A stretch of DNA of 30,369 nt from a virus (IMGVR_UViG_3300042261_001206:1-30369); one strand, 5' to 3'. Positions 1 to 15,591 are shown, numbered from the stretch's first letter. Made by a program: numbers and translations. The notes: generated by a model not told the origin, from the letters alone.

Positions 1-523
1 CTATGTCATTTTCTACATATGTTTCAACATCTTCTGTTTTTAATAAGAATACAATTCCATCTCCTTTAAATGATAGAGTTGCTAAAGTTAATTCATCTTT
101 TGTGAATAGAATACTACACGGAAAATGTGTATTTATGTATTCTTTATCTGTTACACTGAAGAAACTACCCATATTGTGATGACTATGAATTACTACATTG
201 TAACCTTCATTTTGATATTTTGTTAAGTTTTCGTATTCTACAGTTGATGCTGTTACTGTTTGTTCAGGAATGACATATTCATTGCCTACAATGAATCCTT
301 TATCAGAATATTCTCCCTTACATAATATACTGAACTCACATCCTGGTAATTTTTTCTGTATTGCTTGACATAATAATAGAATTTGATGATGTACTTCTAT
401 TTTTGGCTCACCTTCAACTATGCTTAATCCTGAATCCCATTCATCATCTCTTACTGTTCTAAATGCATTTCTTTCAGTTTTATTTTCATATATCCATTTC
501 TTTAATTTATTGTCCCATCTCAT
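1..523 (-). CDS. JAB/JAMM-motif metallopeptidase (3' end outside window)
   Basis: Probable zinc isopeptidase of the JAB/Mov34 family, which removes or matures ubiquitin-like proteins. Translated from ATG at 523 it runs 174 residues without a stop to the window edge. The JAMM motif is complete: a candidate catalytic Glu63, then His113-Ser-His115, seven residues, and Ser123-Val-Thr-Asp126. His113, His115 and Asp126 would bind zinc. The start is supported by GAGGTAT upstream. It begins 9 nt after the stop of the E1-like gene and is the last visible member of a cassette with E1-, E2- and Ubl-like genes, so its likely job is to trim or deconjugate the small beta-grasp protein encoded at 2299-2565. 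A stand-alone DNA-repair (RadC-type) role is less likely given these neighbours. Motif seen directly; partner inferred. Confidence 0.85.
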   Translation of the reverse strand, partial: MRWDNKLKKWIYENKTERNAFRTVRDDEWDSGLSIVEGEPKIEVHHQILLLCQAIQKKLPGCEFSILCKGEYSDKGFIVGNEYVIPEQTVTASTVEYENLTKYQNEGYNVVIHSHHNMGSFFSVTDKEYINTHFPCSILFTKDELTLATLSFKGDGIVFLLKTEDVETYVENDI

Positions 524-532
524 ACTAATACC

Positions 533-1168
533 TCACTTGATTATGTTAAGAAAATGGTCTTTTATATCTATGGTTATTATCTTATTATTTATTGATTCTA
601 TGTTAAAATCTATGCTTGTGACTATTGTAGTTATTGCTGATGCTAAATACTGACACGGTGCTAAGAAACTTGGTACAATTTCATACCCTCTCTGTTCTGG
701 CTCTAATTCCCATATACTGCTGAAATCTGGGTTTATCATTATTGTAGTTGATAATCCATCATAACCTAATTTTACTCTCTTATTGTTCATTAATGCTTCT
801 GGTAATTCATCAAGTACATCTCGGCAGTCTATTATTAAACAGTCCTTTAATTCCTGCATCTCTACATTTGTCAATTCTTCTATTCTTTTGTTGAATAATC
901 TTATTTCTGTTTCATCTCTTCTTTCCATTATTAAATCCATGACAGCATTTGTTTTATCTTCGTCTATATCTAAAGTTCTAAAAGGAGTTCGGTTTAAATT
1001 GTGCTGTTCTATTTTATCAAAATCTATTAGGTATAGGTTTTTGGTTCCTATTAATGCCATATTTAATGCTACCCATGAACCAATCCCCCCTACACCTATG
1101 ATTAATACTTTCTCTGGAATATTGAGTTCAAGTTCTTTCTGTCTGTCATATAAATCTGCCATTACCAT
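533..1168 (-). CDS. E1/ThiF-family adenylyltransferase
   Basis: Likely activates the C-terminus of a ubiquitin-like protein by adenylation, as ThiF, MoeB and E1 enzymes do. The 211-residue product has the glycine-rich ATP loop GVGGIGS (25-31), the acidic strand end LIDFDKIE (48-54) followed by the NLNR signature (57-60), Lys72, and Asp114 after a hydrophobic strand. Cys172 in PSFLAPCQYL could be the thioester cysteine; zinc-binding CxxC pairs found in MoeB are absent. It is short, essentially the catalytic core. AAGGAG precedes the ATG at 1168; a second ATG lies at 1162. Its start overlaps the stop of the E2-like gene, suggesting translational coupling. Family assignment is firm; the substrate is inferred from the cassette. 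Confidence 0.88.
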   Translation of the reverse strand: MVMADLYDRQKELELNIPEKVLIIGVGGIGSWVALNMALIGTKNLYLIDFDKIEQHNLNRTPFRTLDIDEDKTNAVMDLIMERRDETEIRLFNKRIEELTNVEMQELKDCLIIDCRDVLDELPEALMNNKRVKLGYDGLSTTIMINPDFSSIWELEPEQRGYEIVPSFLAPCQYLASAITTIVTSIDFNIESINNKIITIDIKDHFLNIIK

Positions 1169-2274
1169 TCACTCCTTGTTACTCTTTCCTCTGTCACTTG
1201 ATTTCTTTCTTCTTGCGTTATATTATTTAAGAACTTATCTATTAGATATGTTTTTATTTCCATATTCAGAGCAGAGTCCATATTTGCTGTTTGTAGAGTT
1301 CTTGGTAAATCTCTTAATACTTCAAATAATGGTTTACCTTCTAATTCACCAATACAACATCTTTGTGTTCCTATGAAATGTAAGTTTTTACCTCTTGTTA
1401 CTTTTACGTCAGATGATGTTATTCTTGGAGTAACTCTTACTTTTAGCCCTGTTACATATAATTCATCCATTCCTTCATTATCTCCAGGGTATTGATATAA
1501 ATTGTTTCTGAAATGTACTGAAGTTGTATTTACTTTGTTTTTAAATTTTAACCAAAGTTCTCCCTCTTCTTCTACAAATTCCCAATTTTCTAATATTTCT
1601 TTGGAATTCTTAAGGATGTCTACAAATAGTTTATTTCTTGTATCCGTGAATTTATCTTTTAATTTTGTTATTCTTCTTTCATAATTGTTTTTAATAGTTT
1701 TTATCTGTGAATTTATATCTTCATAAATATCTTTGTAAATACTTTCTTTGATATCTTCAAGACTTTCTCCTTGAGTCTCTTTGATTTCCATTGTGTAAAC
1801 TTTTCCGTCTCCTAAAATAACAGCACTGTTTTGTATTTTTACTTTATCAAGTCCAACATCATTTCCTCTTCCTTCTATTGGATTAAGGGAAACTACACTT
1901 CTCATTTCCTTGTTTTTGATTTCTTTTAAGTTGTGTATGTCATCGACTATAATTCCTGCATATACTTCTGTTAATTTTTCAAGTTCTCTTTCTGTTAAAT
2001 CTTCTACAAAACGTTTAAAACCACTGTCTCCTGAATAGAAATATCTACCTTTTCCATTATATTTAACATCTTTACAATATTTGTCTTCATTGACTAATTT
2101 ATATAGATTATCGTGATGGCTGAATTCTGTTCTTAATGTTCTTGCCACATCAAGATATTTACCTGTTACTGCTCTCTTTACTCTTTCATCTTCATCCTCT
2201 GAGAATGTTATTTTTACTTTTAAATCATATCTACTCATTGTTTCAGATGCTTGCTTACTTATTTCGACTAACAT
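1162..2274 (-). CDS. E2-like (PRTRC system protein B-like) protein with central coiled coil
   Basis: Candidate conjugating enzyme of the cassette. The 370-residue protein has a basic N-terminal half, a charged helical stretch around residues 180-235 likely to form a coiled coil, and a C-terminal part containing KNLHFIGTQRCCIGEL. The pattern of Asn/His, Gly, then Cys-(Ile/Leu)-Gly resembles the active-cysteine region of prokaryotic E2-like proteins and PRTRC protein B as I remember them. It sits between the Ubl-like gene (24 nt upstream) and the E1 gene (overlapping), the position E2-like genes take in such operons. The N-terminal half matches nothing I recognise. The E2 assignment depends on one motif plus context; a structure prediction showing a UBC/RWD fold would settle it. 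An adaptor without conjugating activity is the main alternative. Confidence 0.5.
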   Translation of the reverse strand: MLVEISKQASETMSRYDLKVKITFSEDEDERVKRAVTGKYLDVARTLRTEFSHHDNLYKLVNEDKYCKDVKYNGKGRYFYSGDSGFKRFVEDLTERELEKLTEVYAGIIVDDIHNLKEIKNKEMRSVVSLNPIEGRGNDVGLDKVKIQNSAVILGDGKVYTMEIKETQGESLEDIKESIYKDIYEDINSQIKTIKNNYERRITKLKDKFTDTRNKLFVDILKNSKEILENWEFVEEEGELWLKFKNKVNTTSVHFRNNLYQYPGDNEGMDELYVTGLKVRVTPRITSSDVKVTRGKNLHFIGTQRCCIGELEGKPLFEVLRDLPRTLQTANMDSALNMEIKTYLIDKFLNNITQEERNQVTEERVTRSEW

Positions 2275-2298
2275 TGTTGCCTCCTATAAAAAGAGAAA

Positions 2299-2565
2299 TT
2301 ATAGTCCTGCTTTATTTACTTGGTGCAAGACTATCTCTCCACTGTAAGGGAAATCTTCTGGATATAATTTATTTCCTTCTGCGTCTGTTACTCCCATTCG
2401 TTTGATACCTTCTTCTTTTGCCATTTCTCTGACATCTTCTGCTGTAATTTCTCCTTCAAATTCTTTTTCTGCTTGTCCTTCAATTACTATTTTATTATAT
2501 GTTTCTGCATATTCTGGCACGTTTTCACCGTCCTTAAATTTAGTATAACCAAATATGGCTACCAT
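2299..2565 (-). CDS. Small beta-grasp-like protein, candidate ubiquitin-like modifier
   Basis: An 88-residue acidic protein that I read as the modifier of the cassette. From about residue 24 it shows strand (KIVIEGQ), strand (EKEFEGEIT), helix (AEDVREMAKEEGI), strand (RMGVTDAEG), and a last strand (GEIVLHQV) leading to a flexible tail ending NKAGL. This order suits a ubiquitin or PRTRC-C type beta-grasp. The tail has a single Gly before the last Leu, not Gly-Gly, so removal of one residue, perhaps by the adjacent JAMM peptidase, would expose a terminal Gly. GGAGCAGG precedes the ATG. First gene of the cassette and 40 nt downstream of a hypothetical gene. No sequence match is claimed; the call rests on predicted strand order, size and neighbours. 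Confidence 0.5.
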   Translation of the reverse strand: MVAIFGYTKFKDGENVPEYAETYNKIVIEGQAEKEFEGEITAEDVREMAKEEGIKRMGVTDAEGNKLYPEDFPYSGEIVLHQVNKAGL

Positions 2566-5106: not shown

Positions 5107-5313
5107 TTATACCTCAAATGTTTGTTGTTTTAATAAAGTATCATCTATGGAGCCTGTTATATTTATTTTTCTTATTTCTATTATTTCATATATTGTTTTA
5201 CAAGCAGTACATACATATGTAGTTGTATATTTATTGTAAATTGCTCCAGTTGATAATTTCTTATAGTTTATTTGTTTTGCCTCATTTTTGTTACAAATTT
5301 TGCATTCTGGCAT
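5107..5313 (-). CDS. Small zinc-ribbon-like protein
   Basis: A 68-residue protein with a CKIC pair (residues 4-7) and a CTAC pair about 31 residues later (near residues 38-41), the spacing of a four-cysteine zinc ribbon. The start is set at the internal ATG 5313 because GGAGG lies a few nt upstream; an in-frame ATG at 5346 lacks such a site and would overlap the upstream gene further. Likely a protein- or nucleic-acid-binding adaptor. Partner unknown. Confidence 0.7.
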   Translation of the reverse strand: MPECKICNKNEAKQINYKKLSTGAIYNKYTTTYVCTACKTIYEIIEIRKINITGSIDDTLLKQQTFEV

Positions 5314-5599
5314 ATTCTTCTTCCTCCCATTTTTCAATGAATGCACTTTGCATATCTGTTGGTAGGATATTGAATGGTATAATTACTGACCTTTGTGGTC
5401 TTTTTATATATAATTTGAATAATCTTATTCTTGTTATTCCGTTTGGTGCTGGCATTTCCCATATTTCCCATGCTTTAATTGTTTGTTCTGTAAATCCACT
5501 AACCATTGCTATTACTGTTGATGGTCCAATATGATGTACTAATATGTCTCCTATCTTTATTTCTTTGCGGAGTTTATCATTGAATATCATTTTACTCAT
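5291..5599 (-). CDS. Hypothetical beta-rich protein
   Basis: Not recognised; 102 residues. The middle (EIKIGDILVHHIGPSTVIAM and later ITRIRLFKLYIKR) looks like an SH3- or KOW-like barrel, and the C-terminus is an acidic helix (FIEKWEEEEYARM). ATG at 5599 overlaps the stop of the upstream gene (ATGA). Its end overlaps the zinc-ribbon gene start by 23 nt, within which lies that gene's ribosome-binding site. Confidence 0.7.
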   Translation of the reverse strand: MSKMIFNDKLRKEIKIGDILVHHIGPSTVIAMVSGFTEQTIKAWEIWEMPAPNGITRIRLFKLYIKRPQRSVIIPFNILPTDMQSAFIEKWEEEEYARMQNL

Positions 5600-5799
5600 C
5601 TTGGTTGATGTCCATTTAAACTATCTTGTGCGTTTTCTATTTTTTGTCTATTTGATAGTAATTCTTTGTTTAGTCTTCCTTTATCTTCCATTAGGTTTTT
5701 TATAATATATTCTAATTGTTTAACAACAATACATGGTTCTTCACATCTACAAGGATGTGCAGAGAAGTCATTTATATCATATTCTTCATTATTTGTCAT
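5596..5799 (-). CDS. Hypothetical 67-residue protein, first gene of the leftward operon
   Basis: Not recognised. Short acidic N-terminus, a cysteine cluster (CRCEEPC near residues 18-24) and a helical segment likely to form a coiled coil (YIIKNLMEDKGRLNKELL). AAGGT lies before the ATG. It appears to be the first gene downstream of the 226-nt control region, and everything from here to position 1 is packed with small gaps in the same direction. Confidence 0.65.
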   Translation of the reverse strand: MTNNEEYDINDFSAHPCRCEEPCIVVKQLEYIIKNLMEDKGRLNKELLSNRQKIENAQDSLNGHQPR

Positions 5800-6025
5800 T
5801 TTATCATACCTTTTGTTTATTTGTTATGATATTATTTATATCGTCTATAATGCTTTCTTTTCTTGTTTAATTGATGATAACATCCTCTAATTATGAACTT
5901 CTTTAAACTGTTTATATGATTGATAACTGTCCTTAAACTGTCTATTAATACTCTATTTAGCCAATTGATGTGTCTTTTCTATTAAAAATATATAATAAGT
6001 CTTCTATAAGTGATTATCTTCGTAT
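5800..6025 (-). promoter_or_regulatory. Control region of the leftward operon, with direct repeats
   Basis: The 226 nt hold no convincing gene. Very AT-rich. TTAAACTGT occurs twice in direct orientation (5903-5911 and 5933-5941), exactly 30 nt apart, about three helical turns. Several TATA-like stretches exist on the minus strand, including TTATATATTTTTAA (near 5980-5995) and GATATAAATAA (near 5830), but base composition makes a single choice unsafe. Likely promoter and operator for genes 5799 to 1. Confidence 0.45.
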
Positions 6026-7251: not shown

Positions 7252-8136
7252 ACTGCTAAGTTGGTTAGGAGTTGATATGGCTTTATGACTGTTATAGTTA
7301 CGAACTATTGAATTCACCTTTTTAATGACTTCTTCATCATCAATTGTAATGTCTCTGTATGACTTGAATGTATAACCATTGATATATGGTGCATTATAGA
7401 TATTAACTTGTACATTGAAAGTGCTTCTAATCCAGGTTCTTATGAAGTTCTCACTGTTCTTATTAAAGGTGTCAATATTCCATTGTTTACCGTTATATTT
7501 AGCGGGTATGTACAACTTCTTATTACCTTGATGATATACCCATTTAAACTGTGACATTTGTTTATTGTAGTACTTATTGTATTGTGGTGCAAATATCTTG
7601 ATAGATACGCGTTGGTCGTTGCTTGTTACACATGTAAGGTCAAGATATAGCAACTTATCCTGTACATCTTGTATGTATGAAGGGTCACCCATGTATGTAG
7701 TCACCCTATCTGTATGTTTACGCTGTACTTTATTCAATTGATATGTGTCTGATATATTAGGGTTAGTTCTTATAATATCACCTTTGTTATTGAATTGATG
7801 ATTAGGTCTGAATGCAAAGTATGGATTGTCAAGTTCATTGTCAGATAACCAATGTTCTACTACATCTATTACCCATAAACAAGACTTATGGGATTTATTA
7901 AGAGATGCAGGTTGAGATATATTAGAATCATCAGGGAATGAATCATCAGTTTCGCTATTTAAGAATCGATAATCATCCCTTGATACAAAAGGATTTTTAT
8001 CTTCAAACAAAGCAAATTGACCTTCATACAATTCTTCTGTTTCCTCATCTGTTTCATAAGACATCCATTTTTCCTGTTTTATAGGAATCTGTTCATCCAG
8101 TTCATTCATTTCATCTACTTCTACTATAGTTGTCAT
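7240..8136 (-). CDS. Hypothetical 298-residue protein of the accessory array
   Basis: Not recognised. The N-terminal 80 residues are very acidic (Glu/Asp-rich) and likely disordered. The rest is rich in Asn, Tyr and Lys with aromatic strands (FKWVYHQGNKKLYIPAKYNG) and looks like a folded beta-rich domain. Start set at ATG 8136, 6 nt after GAGGTG of the shared leader; an upstream TTG would lie in that leader. It is the last and largest gene of the array and ends in its own terminator. No membrane segment or catalytic motif seen. Confidence 0.75.
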   Translation of the reverse strand: MTTIVEVDEMNELDEQIPIKQEKWMSYETDEETEELYEGQFALFEDKNPFVSRDDYRFLNSETDDSFPDDSNISQPASLNKSHKSCLWVIDVVEHWLSDNELDNPYFAFRPNHQFNNKGDIIRTNPNISDTYQLNKVQRKHTDRVTTYMGDPSYIQDVQDKLLYLDLTCVTSNDQRVSIKIFAPQYNKYYNKQMSQFKWVYHQGNKKLYIPAKYNGKQWNIDTFNKNSENFIRTWIRSTFNVQVNIYNAPYINGYTFKSYRDITIDDEEVIKKVNSIVRNYNSHKAISTPNQLSSSRV

Positions 8137-8163
8137 ATACAACACCTCATTTTTTTTTATAAT

Positions 8164-8295
8164 TCAATTAATATGATTTAACTTTTTATATATTTCATGA
8201 TTAGGGTCTTTAGATGTAGACCCTATAATCTTAACATCTTCACATGTACGAATTCTACTATACAGTAATGAATATATGATGCCATTGATTACCAT
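8164..8295 (-). CDS. Hypothetical 43-residue protein
   Basis: Begins MVINGIIYSLLYSRIRTCED and continues with a polar half (STSKDPNHEIYKKL). GTGAGGTG precedes the ATG. It overlaps the stop of the upstream small membrane protein and ends just before the leader copy of the next gene. Not recognised. Confidence 0.55.
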   Translation of the reverse strand: MVINGIIYSLLYSRIRTCEDVKIIGSTSKDPNHEIYKKLNHIN

Positions 8296-8408
8296 ACTAA
8301 ACACCTCACTATAAATGAATAATATTTTTTAATCAGTGGTTTTGATAATATCACTAACCAGAAAGGGGTTAAGGCCAGGGCAATAGGGCCTATATAGGAA
8401 AGGTCCAT
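8289..8408 (-). CDS. Small single-helix membrane protein
   Basis: A 39-residue protein whose ATG at 8408 overlaps the stop of the upstream gene (TAATG). Residues 5-22 (YIGPIALALTPFWLVILS) form a membrane helix, followed by a basic KPLIKKYY segment, suggesting an inside C-terminus. Its stop overlaps the next start (ATGGTAA). Such overlaps on both sides support translation. Function unknown. Confidence 0.55.
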   Translation of the reverse strand: MDLSYIGPIALALTPFWLVILSKPLIKKYYSFIVRCLVW

Positions 8409-8758
8409 TATATCAACCTCTGTTGAGTTTTATGGAAATCTAAATCAGCAACGATATCATAAGAAGAAGGAAAAACAATTCTTTCCCTTCTACCAATTTT
8501 ACTTTTATAATATCTTTCTTTTTCTTTATTCCAACTTCTAATTGTAACAAAACCTTTATTATTTTTATCTTTTAATAATATAATTAAACATTTATCAAAA
8601 TTAAATTTAAAATCTTTTCTAACCTCACCCCTATATAATCTATCATTATCTTTAAATTCATCACTTAAACTACTAATCCTACTAACATCAACTCTTACAA
8701 TTTTTAAACTTTTTAAATCTATATTAAACATCTTATCCCACATTCTATAAAACTTCAT
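8408..8758 (-). CDS. Hypothetical basic 116-residue protein
   Basis: Not recognised. Lys/Arg- and Asp-rich with strands such as CLIILLKDK and GFVTIRSW, so probably a compact alpha/beta protein. Start set at ATG 8758 because the leader's GAGGTG is 6 nt upstream. First of three overlapping genes sharing one leader copy. Extremely low GC compared with the repeat island to its right. Confidence 0.65.
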   Translation of the reverse strand: MKFYRMWDKMFNIDLKSLKIVRVDVSRISSLSDEFKDNDRLYRGEVRKDFKFNFDKCLIILLKDKNNKGFVTIRSWNKEKERYYKSKIGRRERIVFPSSYDIVADLDFHKTQQRLI

Positions 8759-8794
8759 ACACAACACCTCATTTTTTTTTAATTCAATAAAAGA

Positions 8795-8899
8795 TTATAT
8801 AAGTCTACTGCCATAGTAGATATGACAATGACTTATATGTGAGTACAAATAGATATGTTCGGCTATTTGCACACCTAAGTAACTGATTACTATAGACAC
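8795..8899 (-). CDS. Possible 34-residue peptide
   Basis: Starts at GTG 8899, about 7 nt after GAGGTG of a leader copy: SIVISYLGVQIAEHIYLYSH and on to GSRLI. Supported only by the leader and an open frame; it could instead be an untranslated leader RNA. Confidence 0.4.
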   Translation of the reverse strand: MSIVISYLGVQIAEHIYLYSHISHCHIYYGSRLI

Positions 8900-8919
8900 A
8901 ACAAACACCTCCATTTTTT

Positions 8920-9204
8920 TTAATTCACTAAAAAACGATTAAATAAAGAAAGATAATGAGAGAGAGCAGTGGATTTGGTGATACAGGACTTCAAGCACTC
9001 CCACCAGGGGGCAGGCAGAGAACCCAGAGAGGGGCTATAGTGAGACTGCCAAGATAGGAAGAGATGGAATCCGAAGCCCGAAGGGCTGAGGCTAGATTCC
9101 GAAGCCCGAAGGGCTGAGGAGATACTAAGGGGGGACTGCCAAGATAGGGAGAGAGGGGCTATGGGGGACTGCCAAGATAGAAGAAAGAAAAAAAAATTAA
9201 TCAT
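8920..9204 (-). CDS. Doubtful 94-residue frame through the repeat island
   Basis: Its ATG overlaps the upstream stop (ATGA) after GGAGGGAG, a good translation context, but the product is a low-complexity Ser/Leu/Pro string in which LSWQS recurs three times because the DNA is repetitive. A second pair of DNA repeats is read in two different frames, which argues against selection on protein. The repeat island may have inserted into or replaced a gene here. It runs into the next leader. Confidence 0.3.
   Translation of the reverse strand: MINFFFFLLSWQSPIAPLSLSWQSPLSISSALRASESSLSPSGFGFHLFLSWQSHYSPSLGSLPAPWWECLKSCITKSTALSHYLSLFNRFLVN
9027..9180. repeat. GC-richer tandem/dispersed repeat island
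   Basis: Three families interleave. GACTGCCAAGATAG occurs at 9044, 9134 and 9167. GAGAGGGGCTAT occurs at 9027-9038 and 9151-9162. TCCGAAGCCCGAAGGGCTGAGG occurs at 9070-9091 and 9098-9119 and contains the hairpin AGCCC-GAA-GGGCT. The plus strand is purine-rich. A weaker relative of the first two families appears at about 9790-9817 (GGCTACAGGGAGACTACCAA). Spacing is irregular, so this is not a CRISPR array. The transcript of either strand could be structured. Confidence 0.7.
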
Positions 9205-9326
9205 AATAACTTACACTCCCTCCATAAACCCATACTAATCAACTCATCTTTACTTATATAAATACCTAAAAAAACACTATATTCTACAATCACATCACTC
9301 CAAAAACAAAAACTTATATCAAACAT
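9201..9326 (-). CDS. Hypothetical 41-residue protein
   Basis: Starts 5-6 nt after GAGGTG of a leader copy (MFDISFCFWSDVIVEYSVFL), then a short polar end (WRECKLL). Aromatic and hydrophobic, with one possible strand or membrane-associated segment. Its stop overlaps the ATG of the doubtful repeat-island frame. Not recognised. Confidence 0.5.
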   Translation of the reverse strand: MFDISFCFWSDVIVEYSVFLGIYISKDELISMGLWRECKLL

Positions 9327-9366
9327 ACACAAACACCTCATTTTTTTTTTAATTCATTAAAAATAA

Positions 9367-9384
9367 AGGGCCTATTTAAGGCCC
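9367..9384 (-). terminator. Terminator at the end of the Cys-rich gene
   Basis: GGGCC (9368-9372) and GGCCC (9380-9384) are complementary across a 7-nt AT loop. Read leftwards they are followed by TTTATTTTTAA. The stop codon of the gene is in the stem. Confidence 0.6.
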
Positions 9385-9584
9385 AAACAGTCACCGCCAG
9401 TGTTGTACTCATCCAAACTGTAAGGACAAGTATTGATACAACTGCAAGTTACACAGTCAGTATATCCAAAATGGTTGAAGATAGGGTTGTACTGGTCAAT
9501 AGGACCAATTACTGTCCAACAGACACGACCAGATGAATGTACTGTGTAGTACTCCCCATTATTGAATAGTTGTTCTGAATACAT
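9372..9584 (-). CDS. Small cysteine-rich protein
   Basis: A 70-residue protein with a cysteine cluster in its C-terminal half (DCVTCSCINTCP, plus one later Cys and one Cys in CWTVIGP). Spacing C-x2-C-x-C-x3-C suggests a metal site or disulfides. Start set at ATG 9584 after GGAG of a leader copy. Not recognised; it could be a small zinc-binding inhibitor, but nothing proves this. Confidence 0.65.
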   Translation of the reverse strand: MYSEQLFNNGEYYTVHSSGRVCWTVIGPIDQYNPIFNHFGYTDCVTCSCINTCPYSLDEYNTGGDCLGLK

Positions 9585-9624
9585 AGATATCAACTCCTTT
9601 TTTTTAATTCATAATAAAAAAAGA

Positions 9625-9750
9625 TTAGAGAGATTCAACTTTGTGTAAACGCTCTAACCTTGTGGACAGTTCTTCTTTAGAAAGAGCGCCAGCCTCGAAG
9701 AGGCGGACGGACCTAACTGTCAAGAGAGATACTTGGTTTGTGTTGAACAT
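9625..9750 (-). CDS. Hypothetical 41-residue protein, first of the array
   Basis: Begins 5 nt after GGAGGTG of a leader copy: MFNTNQVSLLTVRSVRLFEA, then a charged helix (SKEELSTRLERLHKVE). Probably an all-helical small protein. It is the first gene of the leader-tagged array downstream of the 9777-9970 intergenic region. Confidence 0.6.
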   Translation of the reverse strand: MFNTNQVSLLTVRSVRLFEAGALSKEELSTRLERLHKVESL

Positions 9751-9776
9751 ACAACACCTCCTATTTTTTTTAATTC

Positions 9777-9972
9777 GTTAGAAGAAAAGGCTACAGGGAG
9801 ACTACCAACTTAGTTAGGTGCGAAAGGAAGCACAGATCCATTCTACGCAGTTATATGGGGTAGTGAGCATGTAGGGTATATACAAAACTAGAATTAACAT
9901 TAACTGTATGCAGCATAAGTGAGTATTCTGACGCATATTTTGCAACATATTACATAACGTTAACTAAAATAG
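9777..9972. other. Intergenic region upstream of the accessory array
   Basis: No gene seen. It holds a minus-strand TATA-like GTATATAC (around 9876-9883) that could drive the array, two related repeats (TTAACATTAACT near 9894 and ATAACGTTAACT near 9955), a small hairpin GTGC/GCAC at 9818-9833, and a diverged copy of the repeat-island motifs at 9790-9817. A promoter or origin role is only a suggestion. Confidence 0.35.
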
Positions 9973-10031: not shown

Positions 10032-11276
10032 TTATGCCCATTTCGACTCTGGGATCTTAAAAGCAGAGTATTCTTCGTACTCTCCCTCGTATTTTATCTT
10101 ATTTTTAAATTCTAACCATGAATCTGTACCATAATGTCTAGGTAAAAGTCGTAAAATGTTACCATCTGCATCTATTTCAACAACATCTCCAAGGTCTTCC
10201 TTCTCTAAATACTCAGGATACTCGAAAACAGCCCTGCCATCACTAGTATTTAGGTAAGATTTGCGTCCACCACCCTTTCGGGAGCCGATTCTGAGCCTTA
10301 AAACCTGTGTATTTACAAGAATTTGAGCTCTTTCCAGTGTAGGATCGTATGGTGCGTTCAAATTACGTGCCACAACCGTCCCATATTCGTTGGTTGCGTC
10401 CCAAATTTGCTCCATGTTATGCAAAATAAGCCTTTCATTAGTCAATTCATGAAAGTGCCATAGTAAATTAAGCCTCTCTGAGAGAGGTCGGCGGTGAAGC
10501 CATACATCATTCCAGCATAAAACGTCCCAAATTTTCAAACCGCCAGGAGTGTTTAGCGCTTCTACAACATATGAAGCATTAATCGATGCTAGTTCGCTTT
10601 TAGCATCATCTATTTCAACGACTTCATTATTAGAATATGCTTCGAGAAGATCTGCGTCTCTGTGTATCTGGATGAGTTCATCGCTGTATGGCTCCACCGC
10701 ACAAGGGAATCTGATCTGGTTCTGTTGATCAGAAGGGTGAATGTGAATATAGGGGATACCTATAACCGGAGTAACAGGCTCAGTCTTCGCACGGGGAGCT
10801 GATATTGCGAATGACATTGCTACTGGGTCCGGTTGTAGTTTCCAAGTATCCCTAATTTCTTGCCAAAGAAGATTGCGATCCATCGCTATCTCTCTGAGTA
10901 CCTCGCTCGCTGCGTATATTGGTTTATTATTTGCTAAATTGCTGCACCACTGTCTTTCGTATGAGGTAAGACGAGATAGAATGTCGCCAATGCGATTTTC
11001 TTCGACGGCTTCGTAATATTCCTGACATGTTACTGTATTTGCGCCCGCTACTGAGGAGGCAATATCTTGTTCGGAAAGATGTACGCCTATTGGATTTAAA
11101 AGGAGTAATATTGCGTATGGGTCTTGTAGATAGCGTACAAATTCTTTCCTGCCTGTTGTTTCATAATTGTTATATACGTTTACTAGACTATAGAATAAGT
11201 TTTCTTTGTAGGGCGAAGGTCGTGGTTTCCTAGTTCGCTGAATTTTTCTTGTTGTCAGTAAGCCGTCTCTAATCAC
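10032..11276 (-). CDS. ATP-dependent DNA ligase-like protein lacking the catalytic lysine
   Basis: A 414-residue protein starting at GTG. From about residue 190 it follows the order of ATP-dependent DNA ligase motifs: VEPYSDELIQIHRDAD (ligases: E-x-K-Y-D-G-E-R-x-Q-I-H), SYVVEAL (strand before the DGE motif), IWDVLCWNDVWLHRRPLSER (ligases: F-D-x-L-Y-x-N-G...PLxxR), and YGTVVARNLNAPYDP (ligases: E-G-x-(V/M)-x-K-x-L-x-x-x-Y). The nucleotide-accepting Lys of motif I is Pro here, its Gly is Asp, and the motif V Lys is Arg, so adenylation seems impossible. The N-terminal 180 residues are unrecognised. It is GC-richer than its neighbours, transcribed from a divergent TATA promoter, and ends in a terminator. 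Fold assignment is by eye; another fold with chance similarity remains possible. Confidence 0.5.
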   Translation of the reverse strand: MIRDGLLTTRKIQRTRKPRPSPYKENLFYSLVNVYNNYETTGRKEFVRYLQDPYAILLLLNPIGVHLSEQDIASSVAGANTVTCQEYYEAVEENRIGDILSRLTSYERQWCSNLANNKPIYAASEVLREIAMDRNLLWQEIRDTWKLQPDPVAMSFAISAPRAKTEPVTPVIGIPYIHIHPSDQQNQIRFPCAVEPYSDELIQIHRDADLLEAYSNNEVVEIDDAKSELASINASYVVEALNTPGGLKIWDVLCWNDVWLHRRPLSERLNLLWHFHELTNERLILHNMEQIWDATNEYGTVVARNLNAPYDPTLERAQILVNTQVLRLRIGSRKGGGRKSYLNTSDGRAVFEYPEYLEKEDLGDVVEIDADGNILRLLPRHYGTDSWLEFKNKIKYEGEYEEYSAFKIPESKWA

Positions 11277-11364: not shown

Positions 11365-11997
11365 ATGACGAAGTACGATTATAATGAGGATTTTTTTGAT
11401 GAGATTGCCGAACCTCAAGGTTGGGTTCTAGGATGGATATCCTCAGATGGTCATGTCAGAAAAGATACAAATGAGATTATTCTTAATTTACAAACTAGCG
11501 ATGTATATATATTAGAACAAATTGGACTTCTTCTTAGGAATGATAAAAAAGTACTTTATAATAATAATTATAACAAGGTTGGAATTTATTTGTGTAATAA
11601 AAAATTACGTAATGATGTTATTGATTTGGGAATTCCAGCCGGGAAAAAAAGTGATATAATAGAACCATTAGATCTTCCAAAAAAAGCTATTCCCGCTTTT
11701 TGGCAGGGAATGTTCGAGGGTGATGGAACTATTTATTATCATAAAGGAGATTCTGCTTATCATATGAAATTGACTGGCAATAAATATATGTGCCGAGGAT
11801 TCCGTGAATACTTCGGCTTTGGTGCTGGTGGTTTAAGTAGAGACCATAACTCTTATCAAACAGAAATTTACTTAGGCCGAAAACGATTCCCAAATATTTA
11901 TAATTCTCTTTATTGTGAATACAATTTACAGAATAATCTTTTTTTAAAAAGAAAACACCAAAAATTTATGGACTGTTTTAATAATTTTAATACCTAA
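11365..11997 (+). CDS. Free-standing LAGLIDADG homing endonuclease
   Basis: A 210-residue site-specific DNA endonuclease of the single-chain LAGLIDADG type. The two signature helices are WVLGWISSDGHV (residues 19-30, Asp at the active position) and AFWQGMFEGDGTI (about 111-123). Each is followed by the strand-rich half-domain expected, with a basic C-terminus (KRKHQK). No intein splice motifs and no intron-split neighbour are apparent: the genes on both sides look complete, so it appears to be an independent mobile gene between the ligase-like gene and the terminase. Leaderless start from the divergent TATA promoter. It is more AT-rich than the flanking ligase-like gene. The cleavage target cannot be told from the sequence. 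Confidence 0.9.
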   Translation: MTKYDYNEDFFDEIAEPQGWVLGWISSDGHVRKDTNEIILNLQTSDVYILEQIGLLLRNDKKVLYNNNYNKVGIYLCNKKLRNDVIDLGIPAGKKSDIIEPLDLPKKAIPAFWQGMFEGDGTIYYHKGDSAYHMKLTGNKYMCRGFREYFGFGAGGLSRDHNSYQTEIYLGRKRFPNIYNSLYCEYNLQNNLFLKRKHQKFMDCFNNFNT

Positions 11998-13547: not shown

Positions 13548-14920
13548 AAATATTAGGTTATGAAATTAATCTTAGAGGCGGAAACCAAAGGGATAAGGAC
13601 GAGTTAGCCGCAGCTAAGAAAGGACCGAAGGGAAAGGTGGCGCCATATTCTGAAATATCGTCAAAAACCTTTGGAACTTATAAAACAGCAAGTGGCGACA
13701 CTACAATTACCAATGAATTAGTAGAAAACCTCTATAAAAAGACAATTATGAACAGAGTTGTCGATAAAATGGCAGATGATGCCTCAAGATTAGGTTTTCG
13801 TTCAATATGTACCGATATAGACGGTCAAACTCACGATAAGGCTCAAGAAATCGGTCGCTCGCTCGATAAATTGATGACTCGCCGAACATTACGCCAAATG
13901 TATCGAGATATGCTAATATATGGAGATGCATACCTCTATAAACAAGTAGGAAAGTCGCCAGACGGCCTTACAAACGTCCTAAAGGTATATGGAATGAGCC
14001 CAAAACGAATAAGTGCCAAAATTGAGAACAATGAACTGAAAGGATGGCAGTTTCAGGGGCCAAGTGGGACTGTTGACCTCAAAGTAGAGGAAGTAATTCA
14101 TATTCCGCGCAATCCACTCACAGGAAATCTATATGGAATAAGTATATTCGAATCAACACTACAAATTTTAAATTTAATACTTAACAGCCAATTAAACTCG
14201 GCTGTACTTATCGATCACTATGCATTGCCACTTATACACTGGCAAATAGATGCAAAACACGAAAGAAGGAAAACACCTCTTTCAGAAATCAAAAATTTCA
14301 TAGGAAGATTGGGGAAAATGACCACAGGATCTGATTTAGTTACAGATGCGTCAATAGGTCATGAAATAGTTGGAGCTACCACCAGCATCCCTGATATTTC
14401 AACGATTTTAGATAAATTAGACTCTTATTTTTTCGCAACAACTGGTGTACCCGGTCAAATTTTAGGAATGGAAGCAGATAACCTATCTGCAATCACCAGA
14501 CAACTGCAAACTTATTATGAAACCATAGCTGGACTTCAAAATAATGCTGCCGACTATGTATCGGAGCAATTATACTGGCCAGAGATAGAAAATGCCGGAA
14601 TTGAAGATTTATATGACTTATCATACACATATAGGAAGCCAATGGTCGAACAAGAGAGCAGAATACAGACTTGGGTGCAAAATGCTGTTGCAATGGATCT
14701 AATAGACATGAATGAAGGTCGAGAAGCTCTAGGATATCAAGGGCCACCTCCTTCAGAGTCAAATGGAATGCAATGGATCTTAGGAAATCCAAATGCAGGG
14801 CAAGAGCCCGAATTTGACAAAAAACAAACACAAGAAACTCCTCCAGGGGTAAAACAAAAGGGAGCACCAGCAGCTAAAGAGAAAAGTGCCCAAAAACCTC
14901 AAGGAGAAAAGAATAAATGA
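13544..14920 (+). CDS. Portal protein
   Basis: Dodecameric channel at the capsid vertex through which DNA is packaged and to which the tail is attached. The 458-residue protein lies directly after terL, as portals do, and has family features: an N-terminal NRVVDKMADDASRLGF region, a wing with YGDAYLY, and the central GNLYGISIFESTLQILNLIL stretch that forms the stem helices. The last 45 residues are disordered, Pro/Lys/Gln-rich and probably not part of the ring. GGAAGG precedes the ATG, which overlaps the terminase stop. The next gene starts within its stop codon. Confidence 0.92.
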   Translation: MKILGYEINLRGGNQRDKDELAAAKKGPKGKVAPYSEISSKTFGTYKTASGDTTITNELVENLYKKTIMNRVVDKMADDASRLGFRSICTDIDGQTHDKAQEIGRSLDKLMTRRTLRQMYRDMLIYGDAYLYKQVGKSPDGLTNVLKVYGMSPKRISAKIENNELKGWQFQGPSGTVDLKVEEVIHIPRNPLTGNLYGISIFESTLQILNLILNSQLNSAVLIDHYALPLIHWQIDAKHERRKTPLSEIKNFIGRLGKMTTGSDLVTDASIGHEIVGATTSIPDISTILDKLDSYFFATTGVPGQILGMEADNLSAITRQLQTYYETIAGLQNNAADYVSEQLYWPEIENAGIEDLYDLSYTYRKPMVEQESRIQTWVQNAVAMDLIDMNEGREALGYQGPPPSESNGMQWILGNPNAGQEPEFDKKQTQETPPGVKQKGAPAAKEKSAQKPQGEKNK

Positions 14921-15591
14921 TTTTTTGCGGGTGTCCAATCCAAAATAGGGAAGAATATGTCGATGGCTACATAGAAGCCTTCGAAAATCAAACATATCCC
15001 CTAGAAGAACTCCATATGTGTTTCTTAGTCAATGACTCGACGGATGACACCCTAAATAAGTTAATAAATCACAAAAACGATCATAACTTCGGAAAATTTA
15101 CCATAATAGACCTAAGTGGCTTCGGTTATGTCGACAAACCTCACTCGCGCAATAAATTTAGCTATCAATCGATGGCTCGCTTGCGTAATATCTGGCTAGA
15201 TCGATTTAACTATGAAACCCATGTTTTCTCGGTAGATTCCGATATAATAATACCCCAAAATGCTTTAGAGCGCCTATTATCTCATAAGCTAGATATATGT
15301 TCATTATTAATACACAATTCAGTAAAAGAAGCAGAAGCCTATAATTTTATGACTAGAAACAAAAAAGGAAACTCATATCACCGCATTAGAAAGCCTGGAG
15401 TTAACCCAGTAGATATAACAGGTGCAGTCTACCTTATAGATGGTAAAGTCATAAACGCAGGAATACGATACGGCTATCGAAGAGGTGGAGAAGATATATA
15501 CTTCTGCGAAATGGCCCAAAAACATGGATTTGGTATATACTGCGATATGGATTTAGAGGCAATTCATCTTAAGGAGGGTGTAAATGAATAA
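14917..15591 (+). CDS. GT-A family glycosyltransferase
   Basis: A 224-residue protein with a GT2-like GT-A fold. It has an N-terminal strand and loop (FCGCPIQNREEYVDGYIEAF), an acidic NDSTDDT stretch, the metal/nucleotide-sugar-binding DSD in VFSVDSDIIIP (about residue 107-117), and a C-terminal GGEDIYFCEMAQKHGFGIYC followed by a His (AIHL), matching the ED/H acceptor and metal region. No membrane helix, so likely cytoplasmic. Embedded between portal and head protease genes with overlaps on both sides, so it is expressed with the structural genes. It probably decorates a virion protein; modification of DNA or host glycans is possible. AAGGAG precedes the start. Confidence 0.85.
   Translation: MIFCGCPIQNREEYVDGYIEAFENQTYPLEELHMCFLVNDSTDDTLNKLINHKNDHNFGKFTIIDLSGFGYVDKPHSRNKFSYQSMARLRNIWLDRFNYETHVFSVDSDIIIPQNALERLLSHKLDICSLLIHNSVKEAEAYNFMTRNKKGNSYHRIRKPGVNPVDITGAVYLIDGKVINAGIRYGYRRGGEDIYFCEMAQKHGFGIYCDMDLEAIHLKEGVNE

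Follow-up and report, generated by a model that had tools for sequence, protein, structure and literature searches.

Bacterial operons that encode a ubiquitin-like protein (Ubl) together with E1, E2 and JAB proteins are known, several of them on mobile elements; row 6d of the same survey lists Ubl, JAB, E1 and E2, and lambdoid tail genes include JAB and Ubl (Iyer et al. 2006, PMC1779556). According to a later paper (PMC11354881), one such bacterial operon, Bil, is a defence system with four kinds of protein, among them BilA with its two ubiquitin-like domains.

The same four classes of protein are found at one end of a virus genome, IMG/VR record IMGVR_UViG_3300042261_001206. This whole stretch of 30,369 bases is termed the window. 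Dozens of widely differing phages carry the cassette too, in most cases next to the genes that copy their DNA. This pattern points to Ubl tagging as a common and apparently undescribed phage trait. The observation is more general than the initial annotation, made from the window alone, could see.

The cassette and its four proteins

Four tightly packed minus-strand ORFs occupy the left end of the window, with the content and order that the initial annotation described:

2299..2565, minus strand: Ubl, an 88 aa predicted beta-grasp protein; folded core at residues about 20-88
1162..2274, minus strand: E2-like protein, 370 aa; identity by homology to the E2 of a related virus, L077
533..1168, minus strand: E1, 211 aa; a minimal ThiF/MoeB-type adenylation domain
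2..523, minus strand: JAMM/JAB peptidase, of which the first 174 aa are present; the contig edge removes the 3' end

The E2 and E1 genes overlap by 7 nt, and Shine-Dalgarno-like sequences precede both. The nearest relatives of the cassette come from two other IMG/VR viruses, L077 (IMGVR_UViG_3300005095_000176) and L082 (IMGVR_UViG_3300003432_000001).

The peptidase contains the full JAMM signature general to prokaryotic Ubl operons (E..HxH-x7-S-x2-D): E63 (335-337), H113-S-H115 (179-187), seven further residues, S123, two more and D126 (146-148). The motif is thus as complete as initially annotated, but the protein is not: the contig ends before the ORF reaches a stop codon, and the C-terminus and anything downstream are missing. 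Matches to NCBIfam PRTRC_A (1.9e-4) and Pfam Prok-JAB (5.7e-4) fall under the curated cut-offs. In the PDB, the JAMM profile finds Rpn11, AMSH, CSN5 and, weakly, BilC (0.19).

The E1, an adenylating enzyme of the E1/ThiF type general to such operons, matches Pfam ThiF at 8.6e-20. Its GVGGIG lies at about 1079-1096, and the nucleotide-binding residues are invariant in the alignment. ThiF and MoeB are its best models; MccB tops the list of PDB matches to the E1 profile, which also holds Uba1, UBA5, ThiF, MoeB, Cap2 and BubCD (5.5e-10).

The window Ubl and E2-like protein have no family match of their own. Both had been assigned by inference, and both are now backed through relatives, the counterparts in L077 matching at 8.8e-5 (Ubl) and 2.6e-9 (E2) in phmmer.

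Modelling supports a beta-grasp Ubl that resembles SUMO, NEDD8 and ubiquitin. The AlphaFold core (pLDDT about 80-88) is arranged strand-strand-helix-strand-strand; ubiquitin, SUMO and NEDD8 family chains dominate among the Foldseek matches listed (E about 0.01-0.03); and SUMO proteins are the best PDB matches of the Ubl profile. The fold check proposed for the 88-residue protein in the initial annotation therefore gives agreeing answers from model and searches. VIA-align returned Z of at most 7.4, with matches that include Ras-binding domains, which have the same fold, and the hhalign score of the Ubl was equalled by 3 of 300 shuffles. The relatives are encoded at L077:780-1034 and L082:4371-4598 (8.9e-5 for the latter).

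A C-terminal Gly, the other general feature of such Ubls, lies one residue from the end. The tail, first given as ...NKAG, actually reads ...VNKAG-L (G87 at 2305-2307; L88 at 2302-2304), so removal of Leu88 would be required to expose the glycine. A Gly falls among the five C-terminal residues in 49 of 58 short proteins that occupy the Ubl position of the viral cassettes; for ORFs of similar size the figure is 24%. The L077 Ubl has EAKGG followed by an 11-residue tail; its GG may be incidental, because the same bases seem to serve E1 as ribosome-binding site. Two candidate Ubl relatives were rejected: the one Ubl match of the single-sequence IMG/VR scan, in L002, lies within a site-specific recombinase and was judged to be chance, and Mycobacterium phage Ryadel has nearby no annotated E1, E2 or JAMM, and no Ubl-like protein by eye. 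Separately, Vibrio phage D69 encodes, near its E2 and JAMM genes, a 263 aa protein (L008:2205-2996) with three similar repeats ending ...TGTKG, which may be a tandem Ubl.

The 370 aa protein has an N-terminal region, a predicted long helix (about 172-222), and a C-terminal E2-type segment that ends in Trp370. Conserved within that segment are H299 (codon 1378-1380) and, in CCIG, Cys307 (codon 1354-1356). The evidence that it is E2-like comes chiefly through L077, a locus fetched by its E1 alone. The L077 E2 carries HPNISSENRVCLG (HPNI..VCLG), and reads YHPNISSENRVCLGTLKGQP. It retrieves 127 PDB sequences at E up to 10; the 60 listed are all E2s or E2 fusions, and the best among these listed matches (0.0079) comes with an alignment that covers their active site. 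The alignment with E2 D2 spans ..VKRAYHPNISSENRVCLG.., and Pfam UQ_con matches the same stretch (0.012). The window protein keeps the cysteine and the segment downstream of it (CIGELEGKPLFEVLRDLPRTLQTANMDS, against CLGTLKGQPISVLVRDLPKTLSLINLDS in L077). HPN is not retained (LHFIGTQRCCIG); LHFIGTQ stands there instead.

Profile comparison (hhalign) of the window E2 with the E2s of loci in which E1 precedes JAMM scores 39.3, against 30.2 for the best of 300 shuffles, all of which it exceeds; the alignment falls mostly on the helical N-terminal part. Together these matches support an E2-like identity. An AlphaFold model of the window protein, built with 12 alignment rows, was too poor for a fold search (mean pLDDT 47.5), and a first comparison against a mixed phage alignment gave no informative signal. 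Prok-E2_D matched nothing in the window, nor did it match the control, and none of the window E2, Ubl and E1, each scanned as a single sequence against IMG/VR, retrieved a true relative. In a related locus, two tandem E2-like ORFs stand ahead of E1 (L086:4240-5229 and 5236-5982), as if the E2 had been duplicated.

Relatives and gene neighbourhoods across phages

When the E1 was used as a tblastn query, crAss-like and Flavobacterium phages yielded ThiF genes; next to these are genes for a JAMM protein, an E2-like protein and a protein whose N-terminus is Ubl-like. Two further carriers, Salmonella phage Arash and Vibrio phage D69, came to light through weak JAMM matches. Genes neighbouring these match Prok-E2_D at 4.4e-4 (D69, below the cut-off) and 0.024 (Arash, where there is also a neighbouring match to ThiF); another phage E2, that of L063, exceeds the cut-off (8.7e-7).

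A JAMM alignment of these phages (A1) then retrieved 67 IMG/VR loci, and an E1 alignment (A4) retrieved 80, 79 of them new as loci. A same-strand E1 lies within 1.5 kb in 64 of the 67 JAMM-found loci, and in the remaining three the contig or locus stops short; a JAMM gene accompanies the E1 in 67 of the 79 E1-found loci. Because each scan was run with a single gene, its partner was not selected for. An ORF with the pattern H..CxG is adjacent in 96 of 118 loci, compared with 53 of 977 other ORFs. The initial annotation had named separation of the genes in related viruses as the observation that would count against it; in these two sets the E1-JAMM pairing is instead retained.

Thinning to E1s at most 80% identical leaves 74 loci, of which 40 place E1 ahead of JAMM (order A, as in the window) and 34 place JAMM ahead of E1 (order B). 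In the E1 tree, the window and the 40 order-A rows form one clade (support 99/94). The order-B loci form a separate clade (98/93), in which the long-branched L124 also falls. The tree contains only three cellular E1s, all from plasmids, and hence does not root the family. Three plasmid E1 matches considered as possible Ubl operons were rejected as standalone ThiF genes beside transporters or transposases.

Within order A, the window groups with L077 and L082 (97/92), and L078-L080 come next. Both nearest relatives are closest to the window in Ubl and E1, L077 also in E2 and L082 in JAMM (1.3e-46 for the L077 E1 by phmmer; 7.2e-25 for the L082 JAMM). They differ from it in layout: L077 has the order Ubl-E1-E2-JAMM and an E2 that retains HPN, and L082 has one extra gene between E1 and JAMM.

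The two lineages also differ in the E1 itself. Nearly all order-B E1s have a cysteine at one column of a loop (for example DDPCTAKHT or CADLDQT), whereas order-A E1s, that of the window included, have none there. Cys172 of the window E1 lies a few residues from this column. The lack of a conserved cysteine predicts direct transfer from the adenylate to the E2; it could alternatively reflect sulfur-carrier or adenylation-only chemistry.

Of the 74 distinct viral loci, 31 carry the window-type JAMM motif, IHSHH[NT]MG; among 84,980 cellular genomes only two stretches match, in a scan specific to this JAMM variant. One of the two stretches was confirmed. It lies on a contig of the archaeal MAG PL23a_bin.95 (L156) with a full Ubl-E2-E1-JAMM cassette and phage-like genes, including a terminase-small-like gene recognised by eye; L156 is therefore probably a virus.

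Family scans place replication and recombination genes around the cassette in both lineages. Order-A loci are flanked by clamp loaders, sliding clamp, RusA resolvase, SbcC/SbcD, exonuclease and ligase; order-B loci by Sak4, DnaB and primase. A clamp-like gene lies upstream in 23 of the 40 order-A loci. Its identity as a clamp is based on four members that match PHROG families, and one clamp-like protein compared by sequence with the PDB had no match. In order B, a Sak4-like gene directly follows E1 in 22 of 34 loci, and a DnaB-like gene is present in 22 of 34. SbcD directly follows JAMM in L078-L080, the window's second-nearest kin, and the crAss-like cassettes stand between DNA primase and uracil-DNA glycosylase. 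For the window itself, whose contig stops within JAMM, no function could be recognised for the adjacent genes. The link to replication is therefore drawn from other viruses, many of which are kin, and the early genes of phages gather around those for replication anyway. A crAss-like gene of about 235-250 aa directly after E1 (L004:5654-6358, L005:5687-6436) is a possible fifth component; the L004 copy has no match in Pfam and NCBIfam scans.

The window's right arm is that of a contractile-tail virus, with terminase, portal, head protease, sheath and tape measure genes by family match and a capsid gene recognised by eye. The virus is thus tailed, as initially annotated. The archaeal host proposed at the same time is not established: the terminase shows mixed, weak similarities to Thermus and haloarchaeal tailed viruses and also to T4-like phages, the portal and sheath gave no match as host clues, and the window has no tRNA and no Rfam match. 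The binning of L156 in an archaeal genome is a weak hint that some carriers of the cassette infect archaea.

Several other features of the window deserve mention. A glycosyltransferase-like gene (14917-15591; Pfam Anp1, 1.5e-9) lies between the portal and head protease genes, and a LAGLIDADG-type endonuclease gene (11365-11997) immediately precedes the terminase. A 414 aa minus-strand ORF (10032-11276), divergent from the packaging genes, has no Pfam or PHROG match. In the left arm (8133-9790), about six copies of a leader-like repeat, AACACCTC, each followed by a T run, partly sit just before minus-strand ORFs, and perhaps represent a shared promoter or leader. A second IMG/VR contig (L006) starts just upstream of the terminase and encodes an identical terminase protein; it is a repeat assembly of this virus, or of one very close to it, that lacks the cassette region.

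A proposed conjugation cycle and its possible targets

Gene content and order, homology, active-site residues, the predicted Ubl fold, and conservation of the unit across viruses suggest that the four genes form a virus-borne, self-contained cycle of Ubl conjugation and removal, a reading to which we give a probability of roughly 75%. From these features we infer activity, direction of transfer, target and purpose, as follows. The JAMM peptidase, or a host protease, would trim the Ubl to its C-terminal Gly, which the minimal E1 would adenylate with ATP. Cys307 of the E2-like protein would receive the Ubl next, possibly directly from the adenylate, given that this E1 lineage has no conserved catalytic cysteine. 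The E2 would join it to a target, and the JAMM peptidase could remove it again.

The genes around the cassette in relatives suggest what would be tagged: the likeliest targets, at somewhat less than even odds, are proteins of viral replication, recombination or repair. The Ubl could act on them as a switch, by a logic comparable to that of SUMO or ubiquitin on PCNA. A more complete proposal can be entertained, in which a virus-specific Ubl system of at least two deep tailed-phage lineages modifies clamps or recombination proteins and thereby controls DNA replication and repair, with the window's lineage doing without an E1 thioester and passing the Ubl from adenylate to E2; taken whole, it is unlikely.

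A conjugation system might instead act on virion or host proteins, labelling particles or blocking or redirecting a host factor such as a defence protein. The initial annotation had suggested similar roles: labelling virions, modifying host targets or countering a host system. Bil, which has the same four kinds of protein, is known as a defence system (cited in PMC11354881), and mass spectrometry of purified Arash particles identified the homologues of E1 (Gp246, 5 unique peptides), JAMM (Gp247, 3) and E2 (Gp248, 2) (PMC10585845). That detection indicates that the three Arash proteins are expressed. They may also be associated with the virion, but the preparation held 116 proteins, including replication and metabolic enzymes, and abundant enzymes may carry over (PMC10585845). 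Relatives' cassettes, moreover, sit in replication or recombination modules, and such targets seem rather unlikely.

Two further readings dispense with a viral conjugation system of its own kind. The Ubl might be thiocarboxylated, like ThiS or MoaD, or the E1 might modify a peptide, like MccB, the 370 aa protein then being no protein-conjugating E2. The best models of the E1 (ThiF and MoeB), the first place of MccB in its PDB list, and the absence of a conserved cysteine from the aligned loop of order-A E1s all fit such chemistry. Against it, the cassettes retain a JAMM gene and an E2-like gene whose L077 version has an E2-type active site, and thiamine and molybdopterin operons contain no JAB gene (Iyer et al., PMC1779556); we consider this pathway improbable. 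Passing acquisition of a host Ubl operon, of PRTRC or Bil type, would account for the four protein classes shared with bacterial operons (PMC1779556). It is very improbable for a cassette whose JAMM motif is so largely viral in the scan above, and whose E1 groups with the 40 order-A rows in a tree that includes three cellular E1s.

If the conjugation cycle is active, ubiquitin-like tagging would be a common viral trait in prokaryotes, carried out by a simple four-protein cascade with a canonical-looking E2 (that of L077) and often encoded in phage replication modules. It would also bear on the origin of ubiquitin and SUMO control of replication. The proposal can be tested at once in cultured carriers: Bacteroides phage crAss001, the Flavobacterium Fpv phages, and Salmonella phage Arash.

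Comparison with described systems

The window shares with PRTRC-type operons, to which we take the row 6d gene set to belong, four protein classes encoded by separate genes. Its JAMM weakly matches PRTRC_A, and some order-B phage E2s (L063, D69) match Prok-E2_D. The differences are considerable: the window JAMM scores 21.1 bits against a PRTRC_A cut-off of 101.8, and the E1 15.4 bits against a PRTRC_ThiF cut-off of 144.75; E2 and Ubl match no PRTRC model in Pfam or NCBIfam; no ParB-type partner is recognised; and the carrier is viral.

Bil (BilABCD) and Bub have in common with the window a Ubl, an E1, an E2 and a JAMM-type DUB. The window Ubl, however, has a single beta-grasp core of about 65 residues, in contrast to two-domain BilA, and is virus-borne. 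Bil defends cells against phages through modification of virions, and the carrier here is itself a virus. Only the E1 matches in PADLOC, to E1-E2 models; the other window proteins have no match there. With scores so far below the PRTRC cut-offs and PADLOC recognising the E1 alone, the window is filed as neither PRTRC nor Bil. The resemblance to these operons noted in the initial annotation holds for the shared plan and fails for the particular PRTRC and Bil features tested.

Openly licensed literature yielded nothing on a Ubl cassette family spread across phages, though paywalled work could contain such a description. Close counterparts are the cassettes of Crassvirales, Fipvunavirus, Arash and D69, whose proteins are annotated as hypothetical, ThiF, metalloprotease or structural, and for which the present comparison provides likely functions. 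Like the window, these encode an E2-like protein, a JAMM peptidase with the signature HSHxxMxxFFSxTD, and an E1 or a fragment of one; the crAss-like and Fpv phages have a Ubl-like gene alongside. They differ in that JAMM precedes E1, the E1 cysteine is kept, and the E1s belong to the separate, JAMM-first clade, the lineage of crAss-like phages, Flavobacterium phages and Salmonella phage Arash.
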